Assembly (NCBI GenBank): GCA_944385035.1
Contig: CALWVV010000009.1
Span: forward strand, 37,367-101,366
DNA from: an uncultured Oscillospiraceae bacterium
GTDB lineage: Bacteria; Bacillota; Clostridia; Oscillospirales; Oscillospiraceae
Length of the DNA: 64,000 nt
Direction: 5' to 3'
Position numbers and translations under genes: made by a program. Below are positions 20,639 to 35,227 of this stretch, one piece after another. The notes under the pieces are model-generated. The model was not told the DNA's origin. It searched no databases and saw only the letters and a program-made list of their open reading frames with translations. Every line of letters begins with the position of its first letter. Position 1 is the first letter of the stretch.

Positions 20639-20680
20639 AAACGAAACCCCCTGTGTGTTTGATCGAAGATAAGGAGATTT

Positions 20681-21490
20681 TTACTTGGCCAGGGCCAGGG
20701 TTTTCTCATAGGCGGCAATGACCGCGTCCATGGCGGCCGCCCGGAAGCCCCGCTGCTCCAGGATACGCACCCCCTGGATGGTGGTGCCGCCGGGAGAGCA
20801 CACCGCGTCTTTCAGCGCGCCGGGGTGCTTGCCGCTCTCCAGCACCATCTGGGCCGCCCCCGCCGCCATCTGGGCGGCGTAGCGCAGGGCCTTGTCCCTT
20901 GGCAGGCCGCAGGCCACTCCGCCGTCGGCCAGAGCTTCTAAAAAGAGGTAGGCAAAGGCCGGACCGCAGCCGGACACAGCGCTGGAGGCGTCAATGAGGG
21001 ACTCCGGCACCGGGTCGATGAGCCCCGCCGGGGCCATAAGGGCGGCAAAGGCGTCCAGCTCCTCCTGGGCGACGTCCAGGCCGCAGTACTGGACCACCCC
21101 CACGCCCAGAGCGCTGGGAGTGTTGGGCATCATGCGGATGACGGGATAGTTTCCCCCGGCCAGGGCCCGGATCTTTTCACAGGTAAGGCTGGCGGCCATG
21201 GTCACCAGGATGAAACGGTCCCGGCGCTGCTCCAGGATGGGGGCGATGCCTTCCAGCATCCCGGCCATCATCTGGGGCTTGACCCCCAGGAAGATGAGCT
21301 GGCACTCCTGGGCCACGGCGGCATTGTCCGCCGCCTCCCCTCCCCCAGGCAGCTCCTGGGCCAGAGCCTGGGCTTTGGCCGGGGTGCGGTTAGAGAGCAG
21401 AATACGCCCGGCCAGGCCGCTTTTGGCGGCGGCGGTGGCAATGGCGCTGCCCATGTTCCCGGTACCGATGAAACCAATGCAGTTGTACAT
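20681..21490 (-). CDS. proC: Pyrroline-5-carboxylate reductase
   Basis: The 269-residue last enzyme of proline synthesis. The NAD(P) motif GTGNMG is at 9-14, and the C-terminal SAVSGCGPAFAYLF, the GTT-type SPGGTTIQGV and the dimer helices are conserved. The start at 21490 follows TAGGAGGA. It is the first gene of proC-proB-proA, so the whole pathway from glutamate is in one operon. Confidence 0.96.
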   Translation of the reverse strand: MYNCIGFIGTGNMGSAIATAAAKSGLAGRILLSNRTPAKAQALAQELPGGGEAADNAAVAQECQLIFLGVKPQMMAGMLEGIAPILEQRRDRFILVTMAASLTCEKIRALAGGNYPVIRMMPNTPSALGVGVVQYCGLDVAQEELDAFAALMAPAGLIDPVPESLIDASSAVSGCGPAFAYLFLEALADGGVACGLPRDKALRYAAQMAAGAAQMVLESGKHPGALKDAVCSPGGTTIQGVRILEQRGFRAAAMDAVIAAYEKTLALAK

Positions 21491-21552
21491 GGCAAATCCT
21501 CCTACTGCCGCTTCCCCGCAGGTGGGCGGCAAAACATTTTGAGATTAGGGCT

Positions 21553-21558
21553 ATTGTA
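21553..21558 (-). promoter_or_regulatory. Probable -10 element of the pro operon
   Basis: TACAAT on the minus strand, about 60 bases before proC; the -35 region is weak. It is back to back with the ytrA promoter. Confidence 0.4.
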
Positions 21559-21615
21559 TCACAGGATTGGGGAGAAGGGGAAGTGAAAGATGTGGGAAGA
21601 AAAAGATAAGAAAAC

Positions 21616-21632
21616 CTTAAGAAAACCTTAAT
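21616..21632 (+). promoter_or_regulatory. Direct-repeat activator-type box upstream of ytrA
   Basis: CTTAAG-AAAAC-CTTAAT lies within two exact tandem copies of AAGAAAACCTT (21608-21618 and 21619-21629). The box ends 22 bases before the -10 element, the usual place for an OmpR-family activator on a promoter lacking a -35. Confidence 0.45.
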
Positions 21633-21654
21633 GGCATTTGCCGCCGGGATGAAA

Positions 21655-21660
21655 TATACT
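21655..21660 (+). promoter_or_regulatory. -10 element of the ytrA-ABC operon
   Basis: TATACT, with no good -35 at 16-18 bases. The direct-repeat box occupies the region just upstream. Confidence 0.55.
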
Positions 21661-21663
21661 ATG

Positions 21664-21684
21664 TGTACTAATACAGCTAGTACA
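21664..21684 (+). promoter_or_regulatory. Operator palindrome of the YtrA-type regulator
   Basis: TGTACTA and TAGTACA, perfect inverted arms with a seven-base centre, overlapping the predicted transcription start. The form and place fit autorepression by the GntR/YtrA protein encoded next. Confidence 0.65.
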
Positions 21685-21747
21685 GTTCGCTCCACCTTTG
21701 TGGGCGGAGCGCGTAAAACCGGGAAATCCCGGAGAGAGGAGGAAACC

Positions 21748-22119
21748 ATGCTCCATTTGGATTATCGGGATGCCCGACCCATTTACGAGCAGGTGAAAGA
21801 CGGGCTGCGCCGTCTGATGGTCACCGGCGTCATCCGGGAGGGGGAAAAGCTTCCCTCCGTGCGGACCATGGCCGGGACGCTGGCCATCAACCCCAACACC
21901 ATCCAGCGGGCCTATGAGGCCCTGGAGGCGGAGGGATATGTCTATTCCGTGCCGGGGAAGGGCTCCTTTGCCGCCCCCAATACGGGAGTGGATGAAGGAC
22001 GGCGCACCGAGCTATACCGGGTCTTTGACCAGGCGGCGGCGGAGCTGCTGTTTTTGGGGGTCAAGGGCCAGGAGCTGCGCGGCAGGATCGGCCGTTTGGA
22101 GGGAGGAAAAAACGGATGA
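21748..22119 (+). CDS. GntR-family (YtrA type) transcriptional regulator
   Basis: A 123-residue protein with an N-terminal winged helix (about 8-75: IYEQVKDGLRRLMVTG, then LPSVRTMAGTLAINPNTIQRAYEALE) and a short C-terminal helical dimer tail, which defines the YtrA subfamily. GGAGGAAACC precedes the ATG. It heads an operon with an ABC exporter. Members of this group usually repress their own operon and respond to wall-active antibiotics or envelope stress. The last codons overlap the next gene (ATGA). Confidence 0.9.
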   Translation: MLHLDYRDARPIYEQVKDGLRRLMVTGVIREGEKLPSVRTMAGTLAINPNTIQRAYEALEAEGYVYSVPGKGSFAAPNTGVDEGRRTELYRVFDQAAAELLFLGVKGQELRGRIGRLEGGKNG

Positions 22120-23018
22120 TACAGGTCAACAATGTGGTCAAGACCTTTGATGGGTTCCGGGCCCTGGACGGGCTCAGCATGCATGCGGAGAAGGGTTCCA
22201 TCTACGGTCTGGTGGGCCCCAACGGAGCGGGAAAATCCACCATTCTCCGTCACATTATGGGCATCTACCGCCCGGATTCCGGGTCGGTGCTGGTGGATGG
22301 GCAGCCGGTGTATGAAAACCCGGCGGTGAAGGCAAAGATCGCCGCCATTCCCGACGAGCTCTACTACTTTACTTCCGCCACCACACGGGATATGATGCAT
22401 TTTTACCGGGGGCTCTATCCCCAGTTTGACAACAAGCGCTACGAGGCCCTGAAGGAGGCCTTCCCCGAGGTGGATGAAAAGCAGCCCATCCGCCGCCTCA
22501 GCAAAGGCATGCAGAAGCAGAGCGCCTTTTGGCTCACCCTGTGCTGCAATCCTGAGGTGCTGGTGCTGGATGAGCCGGTGGACGGCCTGGACCCGGTGAT
22601 GCGCCGCCAGGTGTGGTCCCTGCTTATGGGCGACGTGTCCCAGCGGGGGACCACGGTGCTGGTGTCCTCCCACAACCTGCGGGAGCTGGAGGATGTGTGT
22701 GACCATGTGGGGGTGCTGTCCCACGGAAAGGTGCTGCTGGAGCGCTCCCTTACCGACCTTCAGGACAATGTGGTCAAGCTGCAGATCGCCTTTGCCGACG
22801 GCCAGCTGCCCCAGCTGCCGGAGGATCTGAACCTGCTCCACACCACTCAGGTGGGGAGGGTCTATACCCTCATCGTCCGGGGCAATCCTGCGGACATCCG
22901 CAAGCGTATGGCGCAATATAACCCCATTCTCATGGAGGCGCTGCCCCTGAGTCTGGAGGAGATCTTTATTTATGAAATGGGAGGTGAGGACTATGGCGTT
23001 CGGGACATCGTGCTTTAA
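22116..23018 (+). CDS. ABC transporter ATP-binding protein
   Basis: A 300-residue ATPase. Walker A GPNGAGKST is at 34-42, the signature LSKGM at 128-132 and Walker B with VLDEPVDGLD at about 147-159. It resembles the YtrB/BcrA-type exporters with a C-terminal extension of about 80 residues. It should pair with the membrane protein that follows. The start overlaps the regulator's stop codon, so translation is coupled. Confidence 0.93.
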   Translation: MIQVNNVVKTFDGFRALDGLSMHAEKGSIYGLVGPNGAGKSTILRHIMGIYRPDSGSVLVDGQPVYENPAVKAKIAAIPDELYYFTSATTRDMMHFYRGLYPQFDNKRYEALKEAFPEVDEKQPIRRLSKGMQKQSAFWLTLCCNPEVLVLDEPVDGLDPVMRRQVWSLLMGDVSQRGTTVLVSSHNLRELEDVCDHVGVLSHGKVLLERSLTDLQDNVVKLQIAFADGQLPQLPEDLNLLHTTQVGRVYTLIVRGNPADIRKRMAQYNPILMEALPLSLEEIFIYEMGGEDYGVRDIVL

Positions 23019-24894
23019 TGGAACCCTGTACCGCAAGTCCCTGGCCCGGTTCTGGCCCCTGTGGGGGCTGTGGGGCCTCATTTGGATGTTCCTGATTCCC
23101 CTGCGTATGCTCAACAACTATTTTGAGATTCTGCGCTGGAGTGGAAGCATGGGAGAGGCCCGGCAGAGCATCTATCAGGATGCCCAGCGGCTGGGTGAGC
23201 TGCTGACTCCGGGGGTGTGGCTGGCCTGCGCCTTCGGGGTGCTGGCGGCCATGGCGGTGTTCGGGTATCTCTACTCCACCCGCTCTGCCTGCATGATGCA
23301 CGCCCTGCCCCTGCGGCGGGAGAGCCTTTTTATCACCCAGTATCTGGCGGGCCTGTCCTTCCTGCTGCTGCCCCTGGCGGCAGTGGGAGTCATTACTCTG
23401 GCGGCAGAGCTGATCCTGATCCCCTCGGGACAGTGGGCGCTCACCGTCCCCAGCCTGGGGGTGGTGCTGCTGATCCAGGCGGGGGTGTGCATCTTCTTCT
23501 TCTCCTTTGCCAGCTTCTGCGCCATGTTTACCGGGCACATCCTGGCCCTGCCCGCCTTTTACCTGATTTTCAACGGATTGGTCTATGTGGTTTACTATCT
23601 GGTGACCATGCTCCTGCGGCAGTTCTTTTACGGATATAACGCCAGCTACTACAACTTCTGGGTGACCTGCTGCACTCCGGTCTATGCCCTGAGCGAGGCC
23701 TGCCGGTGGGAATTGACCAGCTTTTCTGATCGTACGATGACGGTAGAAGATTGGCACCTGGCCTCCCCCACCATGGTGGCGGTCTATGCCGGGGTGGGCG
23801 TGCTGTTCGCCCTGGCGGCTCTCAGCGTCTACCGCCGCCGCCATGTGGAGAGTGCGGGCGATGTGGTGTCGGTGAAGGTGGTGCGGCCCATCTTCAAGTA
23901 TGGTGTGGCCCTGTGCTCCGGCCTTTGCCTGGGCGTATTTACGGCAAGCTTTTTCAACTGGCGCAACGATCCCCCCACGGGGCTGATTGTCTGCGTGCTC
24001 CTTTGGACGGCGGTGGGCTACTTTGCCGCCGAAATGCTGCTGAAAAAGTCCTTCCGGGTGTGGAAGGCCTGGAAGGGCGGCGTGGCCGCCGTGGCGGTGA
24101 TGGGCCTTTTGTGCGCGGTGTGCGTTTTCGACCTGTTTGGGGTGGAGAAGCGGGTGCCCAGTGTGGACAGTGTGGAAAAGGTCTACTTCTACGGAGACAT
24201 CGGTTACCCCTATGATGACGGACGGCTGCATTTTGACAACACCAGCGACCCCAGGCTGATTGAAATGGTCACCCAGCTCCATCAGAAGGCTGTGGAGGAG
24301 AAAGGCCGGGCCCAGCAGGTGGGTGGGGACGACTATATCTATTTCAATATCGACTACACCCTGAAAAACGGTTCCACCATCAGCCGAAATTATACCAGCA
24401 TTCCGGTCTACAAAGACGAGCTCCAGGATCCGGATACCCTCACCGGCTGGGCCCAGGGGATGCTGGAGGACCGGGAACTCATCGAGCAGATGTATAACTT
24501 TGACTACTATGAGCAGGGCCAGCTTACCCAGACCTATCTTGTGGATGTCTGGCAGGAGAAGGAGGAGTACTTTGGGACCCTCTTCCTGGAGGACCAGTCC
24601 CTTGCCGATCTGCGCAAGCTGTGGGAGGCGGTGCGTCTGGACTTTGAGGAAGGGAACATCGGCGTACACACCCTCTTCACCGACCCCGGCCAGGGCGACA
24701 TGAACCCGAAGCTGGAGTTTACCTGGGTTTTTGAGACGGATAGCAGAAGCCCCACCTCAGACCGGGAGGGCTCCAAGTCTATCCTCTATGAGGACTGCAC
24801 CATTGCCGTCACGCCCCAGGCAAAGCACACCCTGGCCTGCCTGGAGGAGATGGGATTGCCCAACGGGGGCTATCGGCTCTTCCACGACAATTAA
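22993..24894 (+). CDS. ABC-2 type permease with large extracytoplasmic C-terminal domain
   Basis: A 633-residue membrane protein. The start MAFGTSCFNG follows GGAGGTGAGG and lies inside the end of the ATPase gene (26-base overlap). Hydrophobic segments fall at about 20-45, 75-95, 115-150, 160-180, 190-215, 255-275, 300-320, 330-350 and 365-385. From about 390 to the end there is a soluble domain with no membrane segment, likely outside the cell. The permease-plus-soluble-domain layout fits exporters that remove or sense peptides and antibiotics. A clean terminator follows. Confidence 0.8.
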   Translation: MAFGTSCFNGTLYRKSLARFWPLWGLWGLIWMFLIPLRMLNNYFEILRWSGSMGEARQSIYQDAQRLGELLTPGVWLACAFGVLAAMAVFGYLYSTRSACMMHALPLRRESLFITQYLAGLSFLLLPLAAVGVITLAAELILIPSGQWALTVPSLGVVLLIQAGVCIFFFSFASFCAMFTGHILALPAFYLIFNGLVYVVYYLVTMLLRQFFYGYNASYYNFWVTCCTPVYALSEACRWELTSFSDRTMTVEDWHLASPTMVAVYAGVGVLFALAALSVYRRRHVESAGDVVSVKVVRPIFKYGVALCSGLCLGVFTASFFNWRNDPPTGLIVCVLLWTAVGYFAAEMLLKKSFRVWKAWKGGVAAVAVMGLLCAVCVFDLFGVEKRVPSVDSVEKVYFYGDIGYPYDDGRLHFDNTSDPRLIEMVTQLHQKAVEEKGRAQQVGGDDYIYFNIDYTLKNGSTISRNYTSIPVYKDELQDPDTLTGWAQGMLEDRELIEQMYNFDYYEQGQLTQTYLVDVWQEKEEYFGTLFLEDQSLADLRKLWEAVRLDFEEGNIGVHTLFTDPGQGDMNPKLEFTWVFETDSRSPTSDREGSKSILYEDCTIAVTPQAKHTLACLEEMGLPNGGYRLFHDN

Positions 24895-24897
24895 GGC

Positions 24898-24931
24898 AAA
24901 AAAACGGATGGCAAACGCCATCCGTTTTTTT
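24898..24931 (+). terminator. Terminator of the ytrA-ABC operon
   Basis: ACGGATGGC pairs with GCCATCCGT around an AAAC loop, flanked by seven A and seven T, immediately after the permease stop codon. Confidence 0.9.
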
Positions 24932-25018
24932 AAGCCTATTGAAAAGTCCTGCTGCAAGGAGTTCTGACGCCCGCAGGCGGCAGAATAAAATTTCATTTTG
25001 CCGCTGTTTCCATGGGAT

Positions 25019-27382
25019 TTATCCGGTGATGGTAGTGCCCGCCGAGCGCTGGCCCAGCATGTGCAGCAGCAGGGCATGCTCCCCCCGGCCGTCCAGGATG
25101 GAGACCTCCCCTACCCCGGCGCGGATGGCATGGACGCAGCCCCGGACCTTGGGGGCCATGCCCCCGGCAATGAGCCCGGTATCGATGAGCTCCTCCGCCC
25201 GCTTGATGTCCATGCGGTCCACCGCGGTTTTGCTGTTGTGGCTGTCGATGAGGATGCCTCCCACGTCGGTGAGGAATACCAGGTGCTCGGCCCCCAGGGC
25301 CTCGGCCACCGCACGGGCGGCGTCGTCGGCGTTGCAGTTGAGGCTCCCCCCGTCCTCACCCAGAGCGATGGGAGAGACGACGGGAACAAAGTCCGCGTCC
25401 AGGAGGGTATTTAATACCTTGGGATTGACTTTGGTGATCTCCCCCACCCGTCCCAGAGCGGGGTCCTTCACCGCGGCGGTGATGAGACTGCCGTCCTTGC
25501 CGGAGATCCCCACGCCGGACACCTCCAGCCGGGCCAGGTCGGCCACGATGGCCTTGTTCACCTGGGCGGACAGGGCCAGCTCGGCGGTCTCCAGGGTGGT
25601 TTCATCGGTGTAGCGGTAGCCGTTTACAAAGTGGGTGGGTACCTGGAGCTTGTCCAAAAGGGCGGTAATGTGCTTGCCGCCTCCGTGGACCAGCACCACC
25701 CGCATGCCCACCATCCGCAGGGCGGCCACGTCCTGGAGGGTGGTGTCCTGGTCGGACGCTGCCCCGATGGCCGAGCCGCCGTATTTTACCACCACGGTCT
25801 TTCCCTCGTGGCGCTTGAGGATGGGGAGAATGGACAGCAGGTTTCGCACCTTCTCCATGCCGTCCAGGCCGTGCTGCACGTCGTATTCCTGGAGAAAGGT
25901 GTGGACATAGTCCACGTCCGAGGGAGTGTCGATATACTGGTTGCCCCGCTTCTGCCGGGTCTCCGCCCCCTTGCCGGTGATAAGCAGGACGGAGGGCGCA
26001 TGGCAGCCCAGAATGGCTTGGCGGATGGCCTCTCCCCGGTTGGGCTCGATGGAATATTCACAGTTTTCCTTTGCCACATACTGGGAAATCTCCCGGCAGA
26101 TGTCCAGGGTGTCCTCCTCCCCGCTGTCCTCCTCGGTGAGGATGACAAGGTCGGAGTACTTGCCCGAGATCTCCCCCAGATCCTTTCGCCGGTCCAGGGC
26201 CTTTTTGCCGGGGCAGCCAAAGACCGTGACCACCCGGCGGCCGGGGTACTCCGCCTGGACAGAGCGGAACAGGGTCTCAAAGCTCATGCGGTTGTGGGCG
26301 TAATCCACAATGGCGATGACCGTGTCGTCGGCGTTGGAGTAGACCTCCATCCGTCCGGGGACACGGGCCTTCATCAGGCCCACATAGATGCACCGCTCGG
26401 GGATCTGGAGCCCCTCGCACACGGCGATGGCAGCCAGGGCGTTTTCCACGTTGAACAGGCCGGGCATGGTCAGCCGGAACTCCCGGAAAAAGCGGCGGGT
26501 GCGCACCCGGAAGAGAATGTCGTTGCCCCGCTTGCGCACCTGGGAGGCAAAGACGTCTGCCTGCTCGTTTTTCTGGGAGAAGGTATAGACCGGCTTTCCG
26601 GCCCCCTGGGCTGCGGCCAGGATCCGGTCGGCGTGTTCGCAGTCCAGGTTGACGCAGTTGACGGCCCCCTGGGCAAAGATCTTCAGCTTGGAGGAGAAGT
26701 AGTCCTCAAAGTCCGGGTGCTCAATGGGGGAAATGTGGTCGTAGCCGATGTTGAGGAAGCAGGTGGCGGCAAAGTCGGTACACAGGGAGCGGTGGTACTT
26801 CAGGGCCTGGCTGGACACCTCCATGGTGAGGTACTCCATCCCCGACTGGGCTCCGTGGGCAAAGTGGCGCTGGAGCTCCAGAGGCTCGGGGGTGGTCAGG
26901 TGGGACTCAAAGCGCTCCACCCCGTCGTAGGTGTCGATGGAGGAGACGATGCCGCTCTCCTGCCCTCCTTTTTCCGCCATATACTCGTCCAGAATATACT
27001 TCAGGTAATAGGCGGTGGAGGATTTGCCCTTGGTGCCTGTAAGGCCGATGACCTTTAACCGCCCGGAGGGGTGGTCGTAGAAGAGGTCGGCCAGGGGGGC
27101 AATGGTCCGGCGCATGTCATGGACCAAAATGCCCGGCAGTCCCGCCTGGGGATAGGGGGTTTCGCTCACATAGGCAATGGCCCCCTTCTCCCGTGCCATG
27201 TCCAGAAATTCCGGCTTGAAGTGGGCGCCCTTGCAGAGAAACAGGGTGCCGGGCACCACCTCACGGGAGTCGTAAGAGACCAGGGCAATGGGGGAATTTT
27301 GGTCCATTTCCGGGGAAATGGGGGCGGAGAGCAGGTTCTCTTTCTCCAGCAGGGCGAGATATTCCTTCAGTGTGTGTACCAT
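25019..27382 (-). CDS. MurE-type Mur ligase fused to an ArgB-type acetylglutamate kinase domain
   Basis: A 787-residue two-domain protein. Residues 1 to about 500 are a complete MurE ligase: UDP-binding N-domain (VSYDSREVVPGTLFL), P-loop GLTGTKGKSS (113-122), TTPEPLELQ, the carbamyl-Lys region SSKLKIF (231-237), DYAHN (360-364) and C-terminal GKGAETRQ. The position of the DNPR motif that selects meso-diaminopimelate reads EEDSG (417-421), so the added amino acid is probably not mDAP. From M509 the protein is an N-acetylglutamate-kinase-type amino-acid kinase: KYGGSA, VHGGGKHI, GYRYTDETT, GVGISGKDG, GGMAPKV. No ribosome site precedes M509, so this is a real fusion. GAGGTG precedes the start, 12 bases after the racemase gene. 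Last gene of the cluster; the fused kinase's substrate is unknown. Confidence 0.88.
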   Translation of the reverse strand: MVHTLKEYLALLEKENLLSAPISPEMDQNSPIALVSYDSREVVPGTLFLCKGAHFKPEFLDMAREKGAIAYVSETPYPQAGLPGILVHDMRRTIAPLADLFYDHPSGRLKVIGLTGTKGKSSTAYYLKYILDEYMAEKGGQESGIVSSIDTYDGVERFESHLTTPEPLELQRHFAHGAQSGMEYLTMEVSSQALKYHRSLCTDFAATCFLNIGYDHISPIEHPDFEDYFSSKLKIFAQGAVNCVNLDCEHADRILAAAQGAGKPVYTFSQKNEQADVFASQVRKRGNDILFRVRTRRFFREFRLTMPGLFNVENALAAIAVCEGLQIPERCIYVGLMKARVPGRMEVYSNADDTVIAIVDYAHNRMSFETLFRSVQAEYPGRRVVTVFGCPGKKALDRRKDLGEISGKYSDLVILTEEDSGEEDTLDICREISQYVAKENCEYSIEPNRGEAIRQAILGCHAPSVLLITGKGAETRQKRGNQYIDTPSDVDYVHTFLQEYDVQHGLDGMEKVRNLLSILPILKRHEGKTVVVKYGGSAIGAASDQDTTLQDVAALRMVGMRVVLVHGGGKHITALLDKLQVPTHFVNGYRYTDETTLETAELALSAQVNKAIVADLARLEVSGVGISGKDGSLITAAVKDPALGRVGEITKVNPKVLNTLLDADFVPVVSPIALGEDGGSLNCNADDAARAVAEALGAEHLVFLTDVGGILIDSHNSKTAVDRMDIKRAEELIDTGLIAGGMAPKVRGCVHAIRAGVGEVSILDGRGEHALLLHMLGQRSAGTTITG

Positions 27383-27394
27383 AGGGCACCTCTT

Positions 27395-28111
27395 TTATTT
27401 GATGAAAATATGGCGCAGGGGCTTGCCGCAGGCCTGGACGGCCCGCTCGGCCAGCACGGCCATGGCGTCGGTGTAGAAGGGAGGCAGGTGGTGCTTGTCG
27501 GCAAAGACGGACAGCTCCGTGCAGGCCAGCACCCCGCAGTCGCAGCCCTGACTGAGCAGGTCCTGATGGATGTCGGCAAATTTTTGGGGGTCGCCGTCCC
27601 GCCCGGCTTTGATGTCGTCGTAAATGAGAGACATGACCAGCTCCTGGGCCTGGGGAGAAGGAATGACCGCCTGTATTCCCACAGCAGAAAATTCCTTTTG
27701 GTATAGGCCAGTCTGGATGGTTCCGTCGGTGGCCAGGATCCCAGGCCGCTTTTTTCCCTGGGCGGCCAGCAGGCGGGCAGTTTCCCGGATCATGTGGAGA
27801 ATGGGAATGGAGATCTGCTCCTGCACCCGGTCCAGAAAAAAGTGGGAGGTGTTGCAGGGCACGGCGATGGCGGTACAGCCCGCCGACTCCAGCAGACGGG
27901 CGTCGGAGAGCAGGCGGGAGTAGACCGCCTGCCGGGCCATTTCGCTGCCCAGAATGGCGGCAGTGCGGTCGGGCATGTCGCTGTCCGAGAGGATCAGGGC
28001 GTTGACGTGCTCCTGGTCGGTGTGGGCATCGGTGCGGTCGATGACAAATTGATAAAAGGTGTTAGTGGCCTGGGGCCCCATGCCGCCCAGGACGCCGAGA
28101 CGTTTGTTCAT
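27395..28111 (-). CDS. Aspartate/glutamate racemase family protein
   Basis: A 238-residue cofactor-independent racemase of the Asp/Glu racemase superfamily. Both catalytic cysteines are present: C86 in VPCNTSHFF and C197 in LACTELSVF. The N-terminal LGVLGGMGPQAT is the hallmark of the RacX/YgeA/aspartate racemase branch. It begins three bases after the stop codon of the D-aspartate-ligase-like gene, so the likely role is to supply D-Asp (or another D-amino acid) to that ligase. Substrate is inferred from context. Confidence 0.88.
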   Translation of the reverse strand: MNKRLGVLGGMGPQATNTFYQFVIDRTDAHTDQEHVNALILSDSDMPDRTAAILGSEMARQAVYSRLLSDARLLESAGCTAIAVPCNTSHFFLDRVQEQISIPILHMIRETARLLAAQGKKRPGILATDGTIQTGLYQKEFSAVGIQAVIPSPQAQELVMSLIYDDIKAGRDGDPQKFADIHQDLLSQGCDCGVLACTELSVFADKHHLPPFYTDAMAVLAERAVQACGKPLRHIFIK

Positions 28112-28114
28112 AGT

Positions 28115-29335
28115 TTAATCCTCGCTGGGTACCTTGTTGTACTGGTCAAAGCGCTTGATGTTGCCCAGGTGGTTTTTCCACACCCGAATCCGGCGCTTCA
28201 GAGAGCTGTCCCCGGAGTAGACCAGGGAGTGGCAGTCGGCCCCTGCCTTGATGAGGGCGCGCATCTCCGGATGGTACTTCTTGGGGGTAAACTTGAAGGC
28301 CACCTTCCGGGGCACCATCCGCCACAGGGAGCGGTTTTTGGTCATGCGGAAGGGAAGCTCCTTCCCCTCCACATAGTCCTCCACCACCAGCTTTGCGATG
28401 TTGTGCCCCGCCCCGGTGACATAGTAGTTGCTCCGGCCCTGGCGGCAGTTGATCTCAAAGGCCTTGTACTTGCCGTCCCGGCGGTCGTACTTGATGTCAA
28501 AGTTGGAGAAGCCCACAAAGTGGAGGCTCTCCAGCAGGGCTTTGATGTTCTCCTCCAGGGCCTCATCGTGCTCGGTGATGATGACGGCGTGGTTGCCGAT
28601 GCCGTGGGGGGAGTGCTCTTCCAGAAGCACGTGGCCCAGGCACATGAGCTTCACCTTGCCATTGTGGTCGGAGTAGTTGGTCAGTACCCGCATGTAGCTG
28701 TCGTCTCCGGGAATAAACTCCTGGAGCACCATGTGGTCGGCGTAGCCGGCGGCGTAGACATGGTCCAGGCTTTCAAGCAGCTCCTCCCAGCTCTGGCAGA
28801 TGTACACCTTGGCCAGGGAGTGGTCGCCGCAGGCCCAGTAGGCCACAGAGTCCGCAGGCTTGGCGATGTAGGGCGGCCCCCAGGGAAGGGAGAAGTCGTG
28901 GCCCATGGACTTGTCGTAAATGAAGGTAGCTGGGTGATCCACCCCGTGCTGGTCGCACAGCTCATAGAACTTCTCCTTGTTGATCAGGGTGTCCAGCAGT
29001 TCCCCGTCAATGTAGGGGGCAATGACATTGTCCGGCAGGTTGTCCCTGCAGTGGGCCGCCAGCTGGACATAGCTGTCGCCACAGCCCAGCAGGAGGATCT
29101 TCTTGTCCGGGAACTCACGGGAAACCGCCTCTACATTCCGGCGGAAGGCATCCATATCCTCGTTTTCCGGGCACACCCGGTAGTCGATGATGGCGCTGCC
29201 GTGGCAGGGAAAGGAGGGGTATTTGCCAAAGGCAATGGAGCGCACCCCATAGGCCTCGTGAAAGGCACGGGCCACGCTGTATACGTTGATGTCGCCGCCG
29301 AAGAGAAGGGGCTGGAAGGGAAGGGCTTGATTCAT
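28115..29335 (-). CDS. ATP-grasp ligase, D-aspartate ligase homologue
   Basis: This 406-residue ATP-grasp enzyme resembles, from memory, the D-aspartate ligase of Enterococcus faecium (AslFm, 424 residues) along its length: LLFGGDINVYSVARAFHEAYG at the N-terminus, APYID with LINKEKFYELC, the ATP-grasp core VLQEFIPGDDSYMRVL, MCLGHVLLEEHSPHGIGNH, and the metal-binding FSNFDIKYDRRDGKYKAFEIN. That family activates D-Asp at its beta-carboxyl and attaches it to the side chain of the third stem-peptide residue. Next to a racemase and a MurE-like ligase, a role in the peptidoglycan cross-bridge is likely. AAGGAAG precedes the ATG. Confidence 0.82.
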   Translation of the reverse strand: MNQALPFQPLLFGGDINVYSVARAFHEAYGVRSIAFGKYPSFPCHGSAIIDYRVCPENEDMDAFRRNVEAVSREFPDKKILLLGCGDSYVQLAAHCRDNLPDNVIAPYIDGELLDTLINKEKFYELCDQHGVDHPATFIYDKSMGHDFSLPWGPPYIAKPADSVAYWACGDHSLAKVYICQSWEELLESLDHVYAAGYADHMVLQEFIPGDDSYMRVLTNYSDHNGKVKLMCLGHVLLEEHSPHGIGNHAVIITEHDEALEENIKALLESLHFVGFSNFDIKYDRRDGKYKAFEINCRQGRSNYYVTGAGHNIAKLVVEDYVEGKELPFRMTKNRSLWRMVPRKVAFKFTPKKYHPEMRALIKAGADCHSLVYSGDSSLKRRIRVWKNHLGNIKRFDQYNKVPSED

Positions 29336-29392
29336 AACAGAATAACTTCCTTTGTTGTAGTAGTTGTCATACAGGATGGGACCTGTGAGAGC

Positions 29393-30460
29393 TTATCGGT
29401 ATTCAATCTGGCAGCCCTTGGCAAACAGGGGGTCCAGGTCGAAAATGGCCAAATCGCCGCTGGAGCACTTCAGGTTGGTCACGTCCAGCAGGGTCTCCCC
29501 TGCCCCGATGGGGCCCAGGAGCTTGGCCCGCTGGTCGCCGATGCGCACGGTGCGGTGTTTGTTCCGGCGCCAGGCGTGGAAAAAGGCCCAGAAGCCGCTC
29601 TCTCTGGGACGGGTGACTCCGTAGCCGTTCTGGTAGCCCACGGGGAGCACCGCCACACGGGTGGGCTTTTTCAGGACGATGGGCCGGTCGGTGCCGATGA
29701 TGTGGCCCTTGGGCAGCCACCGCACCTCCGCCAGGGGGACCTCCCCATAGCCCACGGTTTTCAGCCGGTCATCCTTGGTGCGCCGGCACCGGCCCAGGAT
29801 GGCCGAGCCCGCCCGCACCGCGTCCAGCCGGGCGCCGTCGTTGTGAAGCAGGGCGAAGGAGCCCGCCGCATGTACAAGGCCCGTCTCAAACCCGGCCTTG
29901 TGAATGACATCCAGCACCTGGGAGAACTGCTCCAGCTGCTGCTGGGCCTGAACGTCCTTGAGCTTGGCGGCGTGAAGCTGGGTGTAAATGCCGGAAAGGG
30001 CCACGTTGGGCAGGGAGCGGTAGGCCAGCAGGATCTTCTCCGGCTCGCTGACCAGAAAGCCGCCGAATCCCATGCCCGTGTCCACCTGGATGTGGGCGTC
30101 CACCACGGTGGAGCGGTTTTCCGCCAGGGCGTTGAGGGCCATGCCCGTGTCCACCGAGGAGATGGTGCACACCACATTCAGGTCCACCAGCCGCTCCAGC
30201 TCCTCCCGGTCGGTGGTGGAGCGGAGCATTAAAATCTCCTCGTCCACAAAGCCCGCCTGGCGCAGCTTCTCGGCCTCTTTGACCTCAGACACGGCAAACC
30301 GGCCGATGCCCTCCGCGCGCAGCAGCTGAGCCAGGGGGACGATGCCCGCTCCGCCCCCGTCGCCGGTGAGCACCCCAAAGATGGCCGCCCCCGCGGCCCG
30401 GTCCTTAATGACGGAGAGGTTGTGCTTCACCGCCGACTTGTCAATGATCAGCTTGCGCAT
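29393..30460 (-). CDS. Alanine-racemase-fold protein lacking the PLP lysine
   Basis: This 355-residue fold-type III protein has the two-domain alanine racemase layout: N-terminal barrel with HIQVDTGMGFGGF and a C-terminal beta domain with VGYQNGYG and LLDVTNL. At the place of the cofactor motif (usually V-x-K-A-N-A-Y-G-H-G) it reads V-L-T-G-D-G-G-G-A-G at 30-39, so the Schiff-base lysine is T32 and the Tyr and His of the motif are also gone. Two bases differ from a Lys codon, which makes a single read error unlikely. It may be a non-catalytic partner or a lysine-independent enzyme. The start at 30460 is chosen by GGGGG upstream. First gene of the cluster. Confidence 0.8.
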   Translation of the reverse strand: MRKLIIDKSAVKHNLSVIKDRAAGAAIFGVLTGDGGGAGIVPLAQLLRAEGIGRFAVSEVKEAEKLRQAGFVDEEILMLRSTTDREELERLVDLNVVCTISSVDTGMALNALAENRSTVVDAHIQVDTGMGFGGFLVSEPEKILLAYRSLPNVALSGIYTQLHAAKLKDVQAQQQLEQFSQVLDVIHKAGFETGLVHAAGSFALLHNDGARLDAVRAGSAILGRCRRTKDDRLKTVGYGEVPLAEVRWLPKGHIIGTDRPIVLKKPTRVAVLPVGYQNGYGVTRPRESGFWAFFHAWRRNKHRTVRIGDQRAKLLGPIGAGETLLDVTNLKCSSGDLAIFDLDPLFAKGCQIEYR

Positions 30461-30557
30461 AAAAAGGCCCCCTTTTTTTATCTCGGGATGGTTCCGATCC
30501 AATTTGGTTCCTGCATTCCCAAAGCGCGTGTACCTTCACGACATACCATATCACTTT

Positions 30558-30586
30558 ATTTTACCACCCATTGGGGGAAATAGCAA
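30558..30586 (-). promoter_or_regulatory. Promoter of the Alr-like / D-Asp ligase / racemase / MurE-ArgB cluster
   Basis: TTGCTA (30581-30586), 17 bases, TAAAAT (30558-30563). The four genes are colinear with gaps of 57, 3 and 12 bases, so one transcript is likely. Confidence 0.65.
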
Positions 30587-30625
30587 TGAAAAAGGTGGGC
30601 CTGGCCGTCTCCAGCCCGGTTTCGG

Positions 30626-30654
30626 TTGCATTCCAGGGGCGGTTGGTGTAAAAT
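30626..30654 (+). promoter_or_regulatory. Promoter of the zinc-ribbon / PNP / amidohydrolase operon
   Basis: TTGCAT (30626-30631), 17 bases, TAAAAT (30649-30654). Confidence 0.65.
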
Positions 30655-30713
30655 ATATCCACACTTGGTGAAATTATAAGGAAAATTTGAATACTGGAAA
30701 GGAGCGCGCAGGT

Positions 30714-31106
30714 ATGGACGACAAGGTAAAGGATCTGCTGGACCGAATCCGGGGAACCGCCAGCGTGGCGGCGGATGCCGCCGCCGACACTGCCCGTGTG
30801 GCCGGAAAAAAGGCCGGCCAGATGGTGGATGTGGCCAAGCTCAATGTGCAGCTGTTTGACCTGAACGGGGACTATAACGAGGTTATGCGCCAGCTGGGCC
30901 AGGTGATGTACGACACCCACAAGGGGCAGGCCCCTGAGGGTGACCCGGTGACCCAGCTTCTTATAAAAGCAGATGAGCTTGCAGAGAAAATTGCCGAGGT
31001 AAAGGCCCGGATCGCAGACCTGCGCCAGGCCCAGACCTGTCCCGCCTGCGGCGCTCCCTGCGGGAAGGGCGACAAATTCTGCCGCACCTGCGGCCAGGCA
31101 CTTTAA
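30714..31106 (+). CDS. Helical protein with C-terminal zinc ribbon, unknown function
   Basis: A 130-residue protein. The start at 30714 (MDDKVKDLLDRIRG) follows AAGGAG. The N-terminal 45 residues are alanine-rich and helical, residues 50-105 form a likely coiled coil (QLGQVMYDTH ... LAEKIAEVKARIADL), and the last 25 carry a CxxC-x9-CxxC zinc ribbon (CPACGAPC ... CRTCGQAL). No signal peptide or membrane segment. It is a common type of Clostridia hypothetical protein; function not known. It is 12 bases ahead of the purine phosphorylase gene in the same transcript. Confidence 0.7.
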   Translation: MDDKVKDLLDRIRGTASVAADAAADTARVAGKKAGQMVDVAKLNVQLFDLNGDYNEVMRQLGQVMYDTHKGQAPEGDPVTQLLIKADELAEKIAEVKARIADLRQAQTCPACGAPCGKGDKFCRTCGQAL

Positions 31107-31118
31107 GGAGGAAAAAAC

Positions 31119-31943
31119 ATGCAGTATACCATGGAACAGTATGAGGCCAGCGCACAGGCCATCCGCAGTCAGTTGGGGGATTTTGTCCCCAAGGTAGCAA
31201 TGGTGCTGGGTTCCGGCCTGGGCTATCTGGGGGACGAGGTGGAAAACCCCATCGCCATCCCCTACGGAGACATTCCCCACTTTAAGTCCTCCACCGCCCC
31301 CGGCCACAAGGGCCGGCTGGTGTTCGGCACCCTGGAGGGCCAGAAGGTGGCGGTGATGCAGGGCCGCATGCACCACTATGAGGGCTATTCCTATGAGGAC
31401 GTGTCCTATGCGGTGCGGGTGCTGCGCCTGCTGGGGTGCGACACCTTGATCGTCACCAACGCCGCCGGCTGTGTGAACACCCAGTGGGAGGCCGGTGACC
31501 TCATGCTCATCACCGACCAAATCAAGCTCTTCTCCGAGTCCCCCCTCCGGGGCGAGAACCTGCCCGCCTTCGGCGAGCGCTTCCCCGATGTGTCCCACCT
31601 CTATACCCTGCGTCTGCAGGAGCTGGCCCGCCAGACGGCCAAGGAGATGGGCATCCCCCTGCGGGAGGGCGTCTACTTCTATTGCTACGGCCCCCAGTAC
31701 GAGACCCCTGCCGAGGTCCGGGCTGCCCGGATTCTGGGCGGCGATGCGGTGGGCATGTCCACCGCCCCCGAGGCCATCGTGGCCGGCCACTGCGGCATGG
31801 AGATTTTGGGCCTGACCCTGCTCTCCAACATGGCCGCCGGTATTCTGGACCAGCCCCTTACCGAAAAAGAGGTGCTGGATGCCGCTGAGGCCGCACGGGA
31901 GAAATTTTCCGGCCTGGTGCGTGCCTGCCTGAAGAAGCTGTAA
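31119..31943 (+). CDS. Purine nucleoside phosphorylase (trimeric type)
   Basis: This 274-residue enzyme cleaves inosine and guanosine (or related purine nucleosides) with phosphate. It shows the phosphate loop VLGSGLGYL, the GRMHHYEGY motif, VTNAAGCVN and the purine-binding YGPQYETPAEVRAARILGGDAVGMST (split reading, about 190-218), with NMAAGI near the end. AAGGAGG precedes the ATG. It is followed after 11 bases by an amidohydrolase of the deaminase group, so purine salvage is the shared theme. Confidence 0.94.
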   Translation: MQYTMEQYEASAQAIRSQLGDFVPKVAMVLGSGLGYLGDEVENPIAIPYGDIPHFKSSTAPGHKGRLVFGTLEGQKVAVMQGRMHHYEGYSYEDVSYAVRVLRLLGCDTLIVTNAAGCVNTQWEAGDLMLITDQIKLFSESPLRGENLPAFGERFPDVSHLYTLRLQELARQTAKEMGIPLREGVYFYCYGPQYETPAEVRAARILGGDAVGMSTAPEAIVAGHCGMEILGLTLLSNMAAGILDQPLTEKEVLDAAEAAREKFSGLVRACLKKL

Positions 31944-31954
31944 GGAGTTTTACT

Positions 31955-33256
31955 ATGTCTGTACTGTTCCAACATGTCACCGTTCTCACCATGGACCCCG
32001 CCCAGCCCCTGCTGAAGGACGCCTATGTGGCGGTGGAGGGGACCACCATCGCCTCTGTGGGGACCCAGCGTCCCCAGGGGGAGTTTGACCGGGTGGTGGA
32101 CGGCAAGGGCCAGGTGCTCATGCCCGGCCTCATCAACTGCCACACCCATGTGCCCATGACCCTCATGCGGGGTTATGGCGGCGGCCATGATCTGCAGCAC
32201 TGGCTCAGCGACTATATTTTCCCCGCCGAGGCCAAGCTGGACGAGCGGGCAGTGGCCGCCGGGGCGGCCCTGGGCCTGGCGGAGATGATCGCCACAGGCA
32301 CCACCTGCATTGTGGATATGTATATGAAGACCGGCACCATCGCCCAGCAGGTGATGGACGCCGGCATCAGCGCCAACCTCTCCTGCGGCGGGCTCTACTT
32401 CGGCGACCCCAAGGACTTCTCCCCTGACAAGTGCACCGACTGCCGAAACCAGCAGGAGCTTATGCAGCAGTGGCACGGAGCGGGAGACGGCCAGATCCTG
32501 GTGGATGCCTCCATCCACGGGGAATACACCTCCAGTGCCCCCCTGTGGCAGTGGACCGCGGACTTTGCCCAGAAGAACAAGCTGGGCATGCATGTGCACA
32601 TTTCCGAAACCAAGCTGGAGCATGAGCAGAGTCTGGAGCGCCACGGGAAAACGCCCCTGGCCGTTCTGGACCAGTATGGCGTATGGGAGCGGGGCGGCAC
32701 GGCCGCCCACTGCGTGTGGGTGAGCGACGAGGACATGGCCATCATGGCCCAAAAGCATGTCACCGCCGTGCACAACCCCGTGTCCAACCTGAAGCTGGGC
32801 TCCGGCGTGGCACGGGTGCCCCAGATGCTAAAGGCCGGGGTCAATGTGGCCCTGGGCACCGACGGGGTGTCTTCCAACAACAGCGCCGACCTCTTTGAGG
32901 AGATCAAGCTGGCCGCCATGCTTCACAAGGGCGTCAGCCGGGACCCCATGGCCGTCACGGCCCGCCAGGCACTGGAGATGGCCACGGTGAACGCCGCACG
33001 GGCCCTGGGCCGGAACACCGGCGTGGTAGCGCCGGGGAAGGTGGCCGACCTCATCCTGGTGGACTTTAACCGCCCCAACCTGATCCCCTGCCACGATGTG
33101 GAGGAAAACCTGGTGTTTGCCGCACGGGGGGGCGATGTGTCCATGAATATGGCACGGGGCAAGATCATATATGAAAAGGGAGAGTTTTTCACCCTGGACC
33201 TGGAAAAGATCCGTTCCGAGGTGGAGAACTATGCCCTGCCCCTTATTTTTGGTTGA
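31955..33256 (+). CDS. Amidohydrolase, MTA/SAH or related aminohydrolase type
   Basis: A 433-residue metal-dependent deaminase of the TrzN/AtzB/MtaD group. Metal ligands seen are H63 and H65 (NCHTHVPMTL), a His in HVHISET, a His in TAAHCVW and the Asp in LGTDGVSSNN. The closest well-known functions are 5-methylthioadenosine / S-adenosylhomocysteine deaminase, which fits next to a purine nucleoside phosphorylase, but guanine or triazine-type substrates cannot be excluded from sequence alone. Confidence 0.87.
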   Translation: MSVLFQHVTVLTMDPAQPLLKDAYVAVEGTTIASVGTQRPQGEFDRVVDGKGQVLMPGLINCHTHVPMTLMRGYGGGHDLQHWLSDYIFPAEAKLDERAVAAGAALGLAEMIATGTTCIVDMYMKTGTIAQQVMDAGISANLSCGGLYFGDPKDFSPDKCTDCRNQQELMQQWHGAGDGQILVDASIHGEYTSSAPLWQWTADFAQKNKLGMHVHISETKLEHEQSLERHGKTPLAVLDQYGVWERGGTAAHCVWVSDEDMAIMAQKHVTAVHNPVSNLKLGSGVARVPQMLKAGVNVALGTDGVSSNNSADLFEEIKLAAMLHKGVSRDPMAVTARQALEMATVNAARALGRNTGVVAPGKVADLILVDFNRPNLIPCHDVEENLVFAARGGDVSMNMARGKIIYEKGEFFTLDLEKIRSEVENYALPLIFG

Positions 33257-33271
33257 TGTAGGAGGCTTCCT

Positions 33272-35128
33272 ATGGCCCAGCGTAATTCTCCGCCCCGCCG
33301 GCTGAGCGGGCAAAAGCAAAACACCTTCTTTGGCGGCGCGGCCATTCTGGCTGTGGGTATTCTGGTGGTCAAGGTCATCGGGATGTTCTATAAAATTCCG
33401 CTGACCAACATCATTGGAGAGCAGGGCACTGCGGACTTTACCAACGCCTATAATATTTATACCGTGCTGCTCACCATCTCCACCGCAGGCCTGCCGGTGG
33501 CGGTGTCCAAAATGGTGAGTGAAGCCAATGCCCTGGGGCGCCAAAACCAGGTGCGCAAGATTTTCCGCCTGTCTTTGACGGTGTTTTTGACCTTGGGAGG
33601 CATCTCCTTCCTCGTTATGTTCTTCCAGGCGGAGATGCTGGCGGGCATGATGAACGACGACAAGGCCGCCATCGGCATCCGGGCGCTGGCCCCGGCGGTG
33701 GTGTGTGTGGGCTGCCTGTCTGCCTTCCGGGGCTATGCCCAGGGACACGGAGACATGGCGCCCACCGCCATTTCCCAGATCATCGAGGCCCTGTGCAAGC
33801 TGGTGGTGGGTCTGGGTCTGGCCTATTGGCTCATCAAAAGCGGAGCGGGACAGAGCAACGCCGCCGCCGGCGCCATCACCGGCGTCACCGTGGGCACCGT
33901 GGTTGCAGTGGTCTACATGGCCCTGCACCATGTGAAAAAGAACCTGGAGGAGCCCCGGCTGTCCAGAGATGAGCCGGAAGCGGCGGGCAGGATTCTTAAG
34001 GAGCTGCTCCAGATCGCCATCCCCATCACCCTCAGCTCCTCCATGGTGGGCATTGTGACCGTCATTGATTCCGCTTTGGTCCAGGGACAGGTGCAGAAGG
34101 TGCTGCTGGAGGACCCCAGCAGCTGGGCCCTGTACGCGGGGGTGGCGGATTTTGCCCCCCTGCAGGATGCCATTGACGCCTGGAAGCAGGCCATGGGCGC
34201 GGGGGCACAGGTCACCATGACCACGCTGACAGAGCAGCTGAAGGCCGCCGCAGCGGCCCAGCATCCCAATGCCATCCAGACGGCCGCCCTGGCCGTGGAC
34301 GAGGTGCTTCAGGACCTGAGCCGCACCCTCTATGGCAACTACTCCGGTGCCATCAACATCTATAACCTGCCCACCTCCCTCATGGCCGCCATCACCGCCT
34401 CGGTGATTCCCGCCGTCTCCGGCGGATTGGCCCGCCGTGACCGGAAAGGAGCGGCCCGGATCTCCGGTTCTGCCCTGCGCATTACCGCCCTGCTCTCCTT
34501 CCCCATGGGCATCGGCCTGTTTGTGCTGGGCACGCCCATTGTCCGGCTGCTGTTTGCCAGCCTCAATGCGGAGCTGGCCGGTTCTCTGCTGTCCACCCTG
34601 GGGCTGACGGCTATCTTCTCCTGTGTGACCCTGGTGTGCAACTCGGTGCTCCAGGCCTATGGCTTTGTGATTTTGCCCGTCATCGTCATGGTGCTGGGCG
34701 GAATCGTGAAAATTGTCACCAACTATAACCTGGTGGGCACCGCCCAGATCGGCATCTACGGAGCCCCCACGGGCAGCGTACTGTGCTTTGCCCTGTGCCT
34801 GATCCTCGACCTGGCGATCATCGCACGGGTCATCCCCCACCGGCCCAAGTTTGGCCCCATCTTCCTAAAACCCTTCCTTGCCTCGGCCATGATGGGTGCG
34901 GCGGCCTGGGCGGTGTATGGCCTATTGTACCGGGTGCTGTCCTATGTGCCCGATGGAGAGACCGAGCGGGTCATCACCTGGATGGGCAACGCGGTGGCCA
35001 CCTTAGGCGCCATCGGCGTGGCTATGATCGTGTATGTGGTGCTGGTGGCGGCGCTGCGGGCCGTGTCACGGGAGGACCTGGCCCTGATGCCCAAAGGGGA
35101 CAAAATTGCGAAGCTGCTGAGAATTTGA
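33272..35128 (+). CDS. MurJ/SpoVB-type lipid flippase (MOP superfamily)
   Basis: A 618-residue polytopic membrane protein with about 14 hydrophobic helices. The N-terminal FFGGAAILAVGILVVKVIGM and YKIPLTNIIGEQGTADFTNAY match the Firmicutes SpoVB/YabM/MurJ-like group that moves lipid-linked wall precursors or polysaccharides. It is longer than the usual 520-550 because of a soluble insertion of about 85 residues (roughly 271-355) in a loop before NIYNLPTSLMAA. It is followed by mazG, hup and rqcP, matching the yabM-mazG-yabO order in Bacillus. Confidence 0.88.
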   Translation: MAQRNSPPRRLSGQKQNTFFGGAAILAVGILVVKVIGMFYKIPLTNIIGEQGTADFTNAYNIYTVLLTISTAGLPVAVSKMVSEANALGRQNQVRKIFRLSLTVFLTLGGISFLVMFFQAEMLAGMMNDDKAAIGIRALAPAVVCVGCLSAFRGYAQGHGDMAPTAISQIIEALCKLVVGLGLAYWLIKSGAGQSNAAAGAITGVTVGTVVAVVYMALHHVKKNLEEPRLSRDEPEAAGRILKELLQIAIPITLSSSMVGIVTVIDSALVQGQVQKVLLEDPSSWALYAGVADFAPLQDAIDAWKQAMGAGAQVTMTTLTEQLKAAAAAQHPNAIQTAALAVDEVLQDLSRTLYGNYSGAINIYNLPTSLMAAITASVIPAVSGGLARRDRKGAARISGSALRITALLSFPMGIGLFVLGTPIVRLLFASLNAELAGSLLSTLGLTAIFSCVTLVCNSVLQAYGFVILPVIVMVLGGIVKIVTNYNLVGTAQIGIYGAPTGSVLCFALCLILDLAIIARVIPHRPKFGPIFLKPFLASAMMGAAAWAVYGLLYRVLSYVPDGETERVITWMGNAVATLGAIGVAMIVYVVLVAALRAVSREDLALMPKGDKIAKLLRI

Positions 35129-35227
35129 CATAAATTTCCACATTATAGGGAAAACTGGGGGAAGTGGAGCCATTTCCCCCTCTTTTCTGTGGAAAATAGA
35201 AAAATAGCTTGATAAGGAAGAGGAACT

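Follow-up and report, generated by a model that had tools for sequence, protein, structure and literature searches.

Why would a bacterium with an ordinary murE gene, of the kind that adds meso-diaminopimelic acid (mDAP) to the peptidoglycan stem peptide, keep a second one fused to an N-acetylglutamate kinase gene, argB, beside genes for a predicted D-aspartate ligase and an aspartate racemase? The question is raised by a 64,000-nucleotide stretch of DNA from an uncultured Oscillospiraceae bacterium (assembly GCA_944385035.1, contig CALWVV010000009.1), referred to below, at its whole length, as the window. Four genes in the window encode an alanine racemase (Alr)-fold protein (AlrL), an ATP-grasp ligase (Asl), a RacD-like racemase, and a MurE–ArgB fusion, whose two domains we call MurE2 and ArgB2. 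Our answer is that the operon probably provides a second stem-peptide and cross-bridge route of the A4beta type (L-ornithine–D-aspartate, L-Orn–D-Asp), with its ornithine supply built in, beside the mDAP route. Each part belongs to a known kind. New to us are the MurE–ArgB fusion, the association with arginase seen in relatives, and the occurrence beside a MurE carrying the DNPR motif of mDAP ligases.

An extra gene set beside the mDAP route

The genome (2.52 Mb in 53 contigs, estimated to be 89.5% complete) contains ordinary counterparts of these genes. The original prediction had proposed a search for a second, normal murE and argB, and both are present: the other MurE (L003/L069; L and G numbers are our labels for loci and genomes) has the motif TSDNPR and is flanked by genes that read by eye as penicillin-binding-protein-like and MraY-like, and the other ArgB (L070) shows 43% identity. 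An ordinary Alr with the sequence VKADAYGHG (L191) is also encoded, as are a DapF above its model's cut-off and a LysA-like protein just below its own (281.7 vs 297.9). In a family sample of 150 Oscillospiraceae genomes, 32 had a MurE2-type match (at least 419 bits, the next best match scoring 240), and a DNPR MurE was carried by all eight of these 32 that were checked (G000, G145, G037, G077, G066, G128, G075, and G089). The four-gene operon is an extra set beside the mDAP route and not the housekeeping copy.

MurE2 is predicted to be a Lys/Orn-type ligase

The N-terminal part of the fusion scored 289 bits against TIGR01085 (cut-off 257), retained the MurE-type N-terminal domain for the uridine diphosphate (UDP)-linked substrate, and had an ATP loop (GTKGK) and a carbamyl-lysine (K232) that were invariant in 19 aligned rows. 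Where E. coli MurE has TDDNPR, MurE2 has TEEDSG. DNPR occurred in none of the 109 MurE2 rows in which the motif was visible (L111 is cut before it), vs 16 of 17 other MurEs from the fetched loci; acidic residues replaced its arginine in MurE2, and a glutamate followed GKG in 107 of the 109 rows. DNPR is mainly needed for the mDAP carboxylate, according to Ruane and co-workers, and Staphylococcus aureus MurE relies on Asp-406 and Glu-460 for the lysine amine (PMC3829189; this and the other papers are cited from excerpts). In a tree of 64 rows, MurE2 formed one clade (100/99) with the MurEs of Enterococcus faecalis (annotated as an L-Lys ligase), L. curvatus, Vescimonas, and Collinsella, with the Collinsella enzyme as its sister (100/96) and the DNPR MurEs apart. 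Furthermore, MurE2 and the Lys-type reference MurEs shared an N-domain loop two residues shorter, with the pattern LFxCKG..FK..YL, and the E. faecalis enzyme was 38.9% identical to MurE2. The NCBIfam L-Lys model was the top match for two of five other MurE2s and at most 12 bits from the best in the remainder. These features predict that MurE2 is a Lys/Orn-type, that is, non-DAP, MurE. It resembles the Lys-type MurEs of E. faecalis and S. aureus (the latter outside the tree) and the Collinsella MurE in the CKG..FK signature, the missing DNPR arginine, and its clade, and differs from them in its C-terminal ArgB domain, in accompanying a DNPR MurE as an additional copy, and in a predicted substrate of ornithine rather than lysine.

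We take the wall of Collinsella aerofaciens to be of the L-Orn–D-Asp (A4beta) type. A review table gives A4beta under Eubacterium, and the paper reclassifying Collinsella is among its references (PMC11382707). In C. aerofaciens, an asparagine synthase gene lies directly 5' of the murE whose product is sister to MurE2 (L162:3892-7446). The Collinsella and L. curvatus MurEs, both without DNPR, are recorded as mDAP ligases, which illustrates that annotation can mask non-DAP MurEs. A further non-DNPR MurE (TADDPD) was found on a Vescimonas fastidiosa replicon between thyA and a substrate-binding protein gene (L163:5932-7419); in the tree it sits on a long branch among the Lys-type MurEs.

Asl and the racemase as the predicted D-aspartate part

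Asl was 35–37% identical over 96–98% to three lactobacillar proteins, two of which are annotated as carboxylate-amine ligases. Its match to the ATP-grasp Pfam model was weak and below the gathering score. Its AlphaFold model had a predicted local distance difference test (pLDDT) value of 93.2, and the top Foldseek matches of the model were the L-amino-acid ligase 3vot (1.9e-17) and PylC 4ffl (7e-16), the latter determined in the presence of L-lysine and L-lysine-N-epsilon-D-ornithine; template modeling (TM) scores were moderate, at 0.53–0.63. As modeled, Asl has the fold of an ATP-grasp carboxylate-amine ligase. The Asl homologue of L. crispatus adjoins asnB, as would be expected for D-Asp/D-Asn bridges. 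The racemase matched TIGR00035 (8e-62) and the aspartate racemase structure 1jfl (2e-44), with both catalytic cysteines aligned (PCNT/ACTE with PCNT/GCTE), and the operon context points to aspartate as its substrate. Asl is predicted to be a D-aspartate ligase whose acceptor would be the side-chain amine of residue 3. The operon is like the AslA/Aslfm–RacD operon of Lactococcus, lactobacilli, and Enterococcus faecium in joining an ATP-grasp D-Asp ligase with an aspartate racemase, as aslA and racD are joined in L. lactis (PMC4155827). Unlike that system, it contains a dedicated MurE with a fused N-acetylglutamate kinase and a degenerate Alr in front, and its host also retains an mDAP-type MurE.

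The Asl–racemase–MurE order recurs across Clostridia

Asl was found in all 32 MurE2 genomes (E up to 1e-25, 33–100% identity) vs four of the 118 others (Fisher p about 1e-28, ignoring relatedness). In 13 of the 32, the match aligned through the end of ArgB2. Loci were also collected from named organisms as the best 80 of at least 597 matches, a set that leans to close relatives and includes Claveliimonas bilis, Sellimonas caecigallum, Drancourtella massiliensis, Clostridium aminobutyricum, and Sinanaerobacter chloroacetimidivorans. The order Asl–racemase–MurE2 on one strand occurred at 22 of the 32 family loci (window included) and 47 of 79 named loci, well beyond the single strain to which, by the original prediction's own caution, the cluster might have been confined. 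Some loci without this order (6 family and 11 named) were labeled as cut by a contig end. At three family and 13 named loci, the contig continued and MurE2 had no upstream Asl, racemase, or AlrL and no ArgB2; in four of these 13 (L124, L125, L127, and L147), Asl lay downstream instead. Within 6 kb of MurE2, Asl was present at 80 of 110 loci and the racemase at 75 of 110. Such recurrence of the core order Asl–racemase–MurE in different Clostridia goes beyond chance.

Another arrangement was observed where Asl occurs without MurE2. At the four such loci inspected (G005, G071, G115, and the S. variabile record L160, with G121 not among them), asparagine synthase adjoined Asl in all four, and a racemase was present in three. 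This layout, at L160:8001-11872 in S. variabile and at L206, L207, and L208 in three family genomes, appears to be a second, lactobacillus-like D-Asn-bridge layout in Oscillospiraceae.

ArgB2 has lost the feedback glycine

ArgB2 scored 238 bits against TIGR00761 (cut-off 151), and it is like N-acetylglutamate kinase in its fold family and in its active-site motifs (Lys, GGG, Arg, NxNAD, and GGMxPK). These motifs were intact in 33 of 41 fused copies (counting L079, which is cut by a contig end), and the other eight were shrunken remnants. Unlike ordinary ArgBs, ArgB2 is fused to MurE, and 18 of the 33 intact copies formed one clade (100/100), separate from 21 housekeeping ArgBs. The glycine equivalent to G287 in Corynebacterium glutamicum numbering, with the register set by a spacing count, was present in none of the 32 ArgB2 sequences in register vs all 21 housekeeping ArgBs. 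G287D is listed among the arginine-insensitive C. glutamicum ArgB variants that raise ornithine (PMC6962107). The histidine equivalent to H268 was rejected as a second feedback marker, being retained in just seven of the 21 housekeeping ArgBs. The original prediction had found no place for the kinase in any described cross-bridge route; ornithine supply gives it a simple one.

In the window's group, ArgB2 evolved like the remaining operon genes, as judged by the ratio of nonsynonymous to synonymous substitution rates (dN/dS). Eight in-frame remnants of approximately 145–210 residues lacked the active site (L085–L089, L093, L110, and L049), with both ends of the kinase retained. At L085–L088, the dN/dS of the remnant was 0.42–0.72 vs 0.12–0.26 for the other genes in the same four pairs. 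The idea that the remnants persist as arginine-sensing domains was rejected for these four loci on these ratios, and the other four remnants lie outside that test.

Arginase-type genes near fusion-less MurE2

Within 6 kb of MurE2, an arginase-type gene was found at 8 of 110 loci, from approximately three lineages and all fusion-less; the same test gave no LysA, no unfused ArgB, and one other Alr. The arginase gene was immediately 3' of MurE2 at L137, L140, and L145 and convergent to it at L118, L119, and L128. A run of MurE2, asparagine synthase, Asl, and arginase was observed at L124:6989-12759 (by Pfam) and L125 (with the synthase read by eye); in such runs, the predicted functions (residue 3, amidation, D-Asp bridging, and the supply of ornithine) are neighbors. 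Four of these eight MurE2-adjacent arginases were scanned, and rocF was by a wide margin the best model for all four. Arginase-family matches occurred in 8 of the 150 family genomes with one query and in 9 with the other; at the rate of 8/150, approximately 0.03 arginases would be expected in an equal amount of sequence, a rate that comes from one family, with most of the arginase loci coming from others.

Genome-wide presence of arginase was determined in 32 genomes, representing 18 of the 21 named intact-fusion loci, eight remnant loci, and six of the 12 loci of a fusion-less clade (L097–L108). An arginase-type gene was present in none of the 18 genomes with an intact ArgB2, in two of the eight with a remnant, and in all six of the fusion-less clade. 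The arginases of that clade are of the L124 type; the three that were scanned (L209, L210, and L211) matched rocF best, with 162–166 bits, and a fourth, L213, scored 169. Two remnant genomes, G128 and G152, had arginases that exceeded the rocF cut-off, at 264 and 273 bits. A strict either/or between ArgB2 and arginase was considered and dropped, as it holds in one clade and fails in the family sample.

AlrL, a degenerate alanine racemase

AlrL matched Pfam PF01168 (2.7e-44) and lacks the C-terminal end of Alr. Alignment with the Alr of the same genome set VLTGDGGGAG against VKADAYGHG, placing a threonine at the position of the lysine that binds pyridoxal phosphate, which agrees with the loss of this lysine noted in the original prediction. 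The position was T, S, or A in 16 of 17 AlrL sequences and K in L048 alone, but in L048 the GYxDG tyrosine, a residue presumed to have a role in such enzymes, is missing. The dN/dS of AlrL was 0.08–0.36 in nine pairs, the same range as in the other operon genes. AlrL appears to be a former racemase under purifying selection that has kept a non-racemase role; this conserved function may be accessory or regulatory. The earlier statement that no described cross-bridge route accommodates AlrL stands, now with the addition that it is a degenerate Alr kept under purifying selection. An AlphaFold model of AlrL (pLDDT 47) was discarded as unusable.

Weighing the proposed route

In the route that we consider probable, MurE2 would extend UDP-N-acetylmuramoyl (UDP-MurNAc)-L-Ala-D-Glu by a diamino acid that has no second carboxylate, L-ornithine being the most likely one, and ArgB2, as an N-acetylglutamate kinase without the arginine-feedback glycine, would raise the ornithine supply beside it. 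RacD would convert L-Asp to D-Asp, and Asl would attach this D-Asp to residue 3 at its side-chain amine, producing the cross-bridge. We infer all of these substrates, together with the choice of ornithine, the D-Asp bridge, and the production of both wall types. The cluster is still best read, in line with the original prediction, as making a stem or cross-bridge modified with D-Asp. The further suggestion of that prediction that the whole pathway looks undescribed is not supported, given that L-Lys/L-Orn–D-Asp walls, aslA–racD operons, and Lys-type MurEs have been described (PMC4155827, PMC3829189). No openly licensed PubMed Central paper among the matches listed dealt, by its title or the start of its abstract, with a MurE–ArgB fusion or with this operon.

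Several observations weigh against this reading. Among the rows of the MurE tree, five were flagged by the program as long and of unsure placement, including Collinsella and Vescimonas, and the MurE of Deinococcus, whose wall we take to be of the Orn type, joined the DNPR enzymes on a long branch. In NCBIfam, the window's MurE2 scored 354 bits against the mDAP-named model (cut-off 762) and 312 bits against the L-Lys model PRK14022 (cut-off 536); these models leave its type undecided, and by the second it does not count as an L-lysine ligase. The racemase also exceeded the cut-off of the cysteate racemase model CuyB (202.5 vs 190), and Asl occurs without MurE2 in four family genomes and the S. 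variabile record. ArgB2 is decaying at L085–L088 and so is dispensable. As for arginase, the scanned MurE2-adjacent proteins scored 182–213 bits, below the rocF cut-off of 227.6, and the contrast of 6/6 with 0/18 (Fisher 7e-6) comes from a single clade. Just two of the eight remnant genomes had an arginase. In the family sample, an arginase match was present in only one of the 18 fusion-less MurE2 genomes (G141, partial), and most of these show neither ArgB2 nor arginase; among the 13 intact-fusion genomes, one (G030) had a match with one query and three with the other, two of the three being weak at 50–52 bits (the window's own genome and G039). No wall chemistry was found for any carrier.

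The main competing explanation, which we regard as unlikely, is that the same module works with L-lysine (A4alpha, L-Lys–D-Asp), MurE2 adding lysine and ArgB2 serving arginine metabolism or protein assembly. The Lys-type MurE of E. faecalis is a close relative of MurE2 in both identity and the tree, S. aureus MurE accepts ornithine approximately 400-fold less well than lysine (PMC3829189), most fusion-less MurE2 loci have no nearby arginase or unfused ArgB in the 110-locus test, and ArgB2 decays in some carriers. However, arginase-type genes and not LysA were found near MurE2 in that test, the enzyme fused to MurE2 belongs to the ornithine route, and the feedback glycine has been lost from every ArgB2 in register, all of which favor ornithine.

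Two other explanations were weighed. ArgB2 might act directly on a wall precursor and so prepare a substrate for MurE2, by phosphorylating an N-acyl-D-Glu at its gamma-carboxylate (as at the end of UDP-MurNAc-L-Ala-D-Glu) or some other carboxylate of the wall. The covalent fusion would suit such a role, MurE chemistry also runs via a gamma-glutamyl phosphate, and ArgB2 differs from housekeeping ArgB at several motifs (GGGKx replaces GGGPE in 31 of 33 copies, GYR replaces GLR in 32, and NADD replaces NADT in 32). We nevertheless consider it improbable: MurE2 retains its own ATP-site and carbamyl-lysine motifs, related MurE2s exist without the fusion, the GLR/GYR position varies anyway (Thermotoga maritima N-acetylglutamate kinase has GHR there), and ornithine supply fits the arginase neighbors better. 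Highly improbable, in our view, is a non-wall product, such as a cyanophycin-like or capsule-like polymer. It has in its favor that an ATP-grasp enzyme and a Mur ligase occur together, as in cyanophycin synthetase, and that the cyanophycin model does match weakly. The MurE-type UDP-substrate domain is kept, however, the protein nests inside the MurE tree, and relatives pair asparagine synthase with Asl, like the D-Asn bridges of lactobacilli (PMC4155827). The cyanophycin version in particular was rejected on its score (64 bits vs a cut-off of 850) and on its layout of separate genes instead of one chain, in line with the earlier view that the MurE domain is a genuine MurE and a cyanophycin-type enzyme less likely.

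If the A4beta-type route is correct, gut Oscillospiraceae and Lachnospiraceae with an ordinary mDAP MurE possess another wall chemistry as well, and the operon contains a wall ligase whose substrate choice is aided by a fused supply enzyme. Supply-aided choice would fit the reported dependence of S. aureus MurE on a high lysine pool (PMC3829189). In the table of a 2024 review, no peptidoglycan type is entered for the genera Oscillibacter, Ruminococcus, and Lachnoclostridium (PMC11382707). Which host receptors recognize wall fragments depends on the third residue and its amidation, and the route would bear on the sensing of the gut flora by nucleotide-binding oligomerization domain (NOD) receptors.

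A bolder extension, which we put forward tentatively as possible rather than probable, is that single cells of these gut Clostridia run two stem routes in parallel and make two chemically different peptidoglycans, one with mDAP and one with L-Orn–D-Asp. Supply would partly determine the third residue of the latter, through a fused, feedback-freed N-acetylglutamate kinase or an adjacent arginase, and the switch might be developmental (for example, vegetative wall vs spore cortex) or environmental. Lysinibacillus sphaericus is said to have such a two-wall system, with L-Lys–D-Asp in the vegetative wall and mDAP in the spore cortex. The likeness would lie in two third-residue ligases per organism, together with the Spo0A matches in the window's genome; the differences are that ornithine rather than lysine is predicted here and that the operon and fusion architecture is its own. 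The suggested link to sporulation comes from the Spo0A matches, expression not being readable from sequence. Two such matches were over the cut-off in the window's assembly, at G000:C37:5234-5962 (278.8 bits) and G000:C23:20526-21254 (278.2 bits); the two scores are nearly equal, and the gene may be present twice, or one contig may be duplicated in a mixed assembly.

Operon layout and genome setting

The coordinates and the family scans confirmed the four colinear genes of the original prediction, with intergenic gaps of 57, 3, and 12 bases (Table 1). Domain assignments were backed by Pfam and NCBIfam matches to Ala_racemase_N/C, Asp_Glu_race (TIGR00035), MurE (TIGR01085), and ArgB (TIGR00761). 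A single promoter for all four genes, also part of the original prediction, is plausible: a promoter-like match precedes the first gene, in a region with four such matches vs a mean of 1.5 in shuffles, a modest excess. A search of window positions 20000–36000 and of nine named loci with Rfam gave no T-box or riboswitch upstream at the gathering threshold.

Table 1. Features of the four-gene operon, in window coordinates (ORF, open reading frame; aa, amino acids)
Feature	Position	Strand	Remarks
AlrL (Alr-fold protein)	30460-29393	minus	355 aa; likely ATG start at 30460; the ORF list has TTG at 30502
Asl-type ATP-grasp ligase, predicted D-aspartate ligase	29335-28115	minus	406 aa
RacD-like aspartate racemase	28111-27395	minus	238 aa
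MurE–ArgB fusion	27382-25019	minus	787 aa
MurE2 domain of fusion	27382-25868	minus	residues 1-505; predicted Lys/Orn-type MurE
ArgB2 domain of fusion	25867-25019	minus	residues 506-787 and stop; N-acetylglutamate-kinase domain
Promoter-like site	30586-30558	minus	TTGCTA-17-TAAAAT, TG before the second hexamer; consensus match; approximately 100 bases ahead of the first gene
Terminator-like hairpin	24932-24897	minus	16 pairs, 4-base loop; 3' of the operon

Among the matches listed, the closest named relatives of the fusion were from an uncultured Oscillospiraceae bacterium (93%), metagenome-assembled genomes of Lawsonibacter (80–82%), and Flavonifractor sp. An100 (81%). Past the upstream end of the operon, the fourth plus-strand gene (33272-35128) encodes a flippase of the MurJ/Polysacc_synt type. 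At L091, L109, L113, and L116, MurE2 is followed by a recurring gene of approximately 465–470 residues that looks transporter-like by eye, and in most of these four loci a second gene of similar length comes after it.

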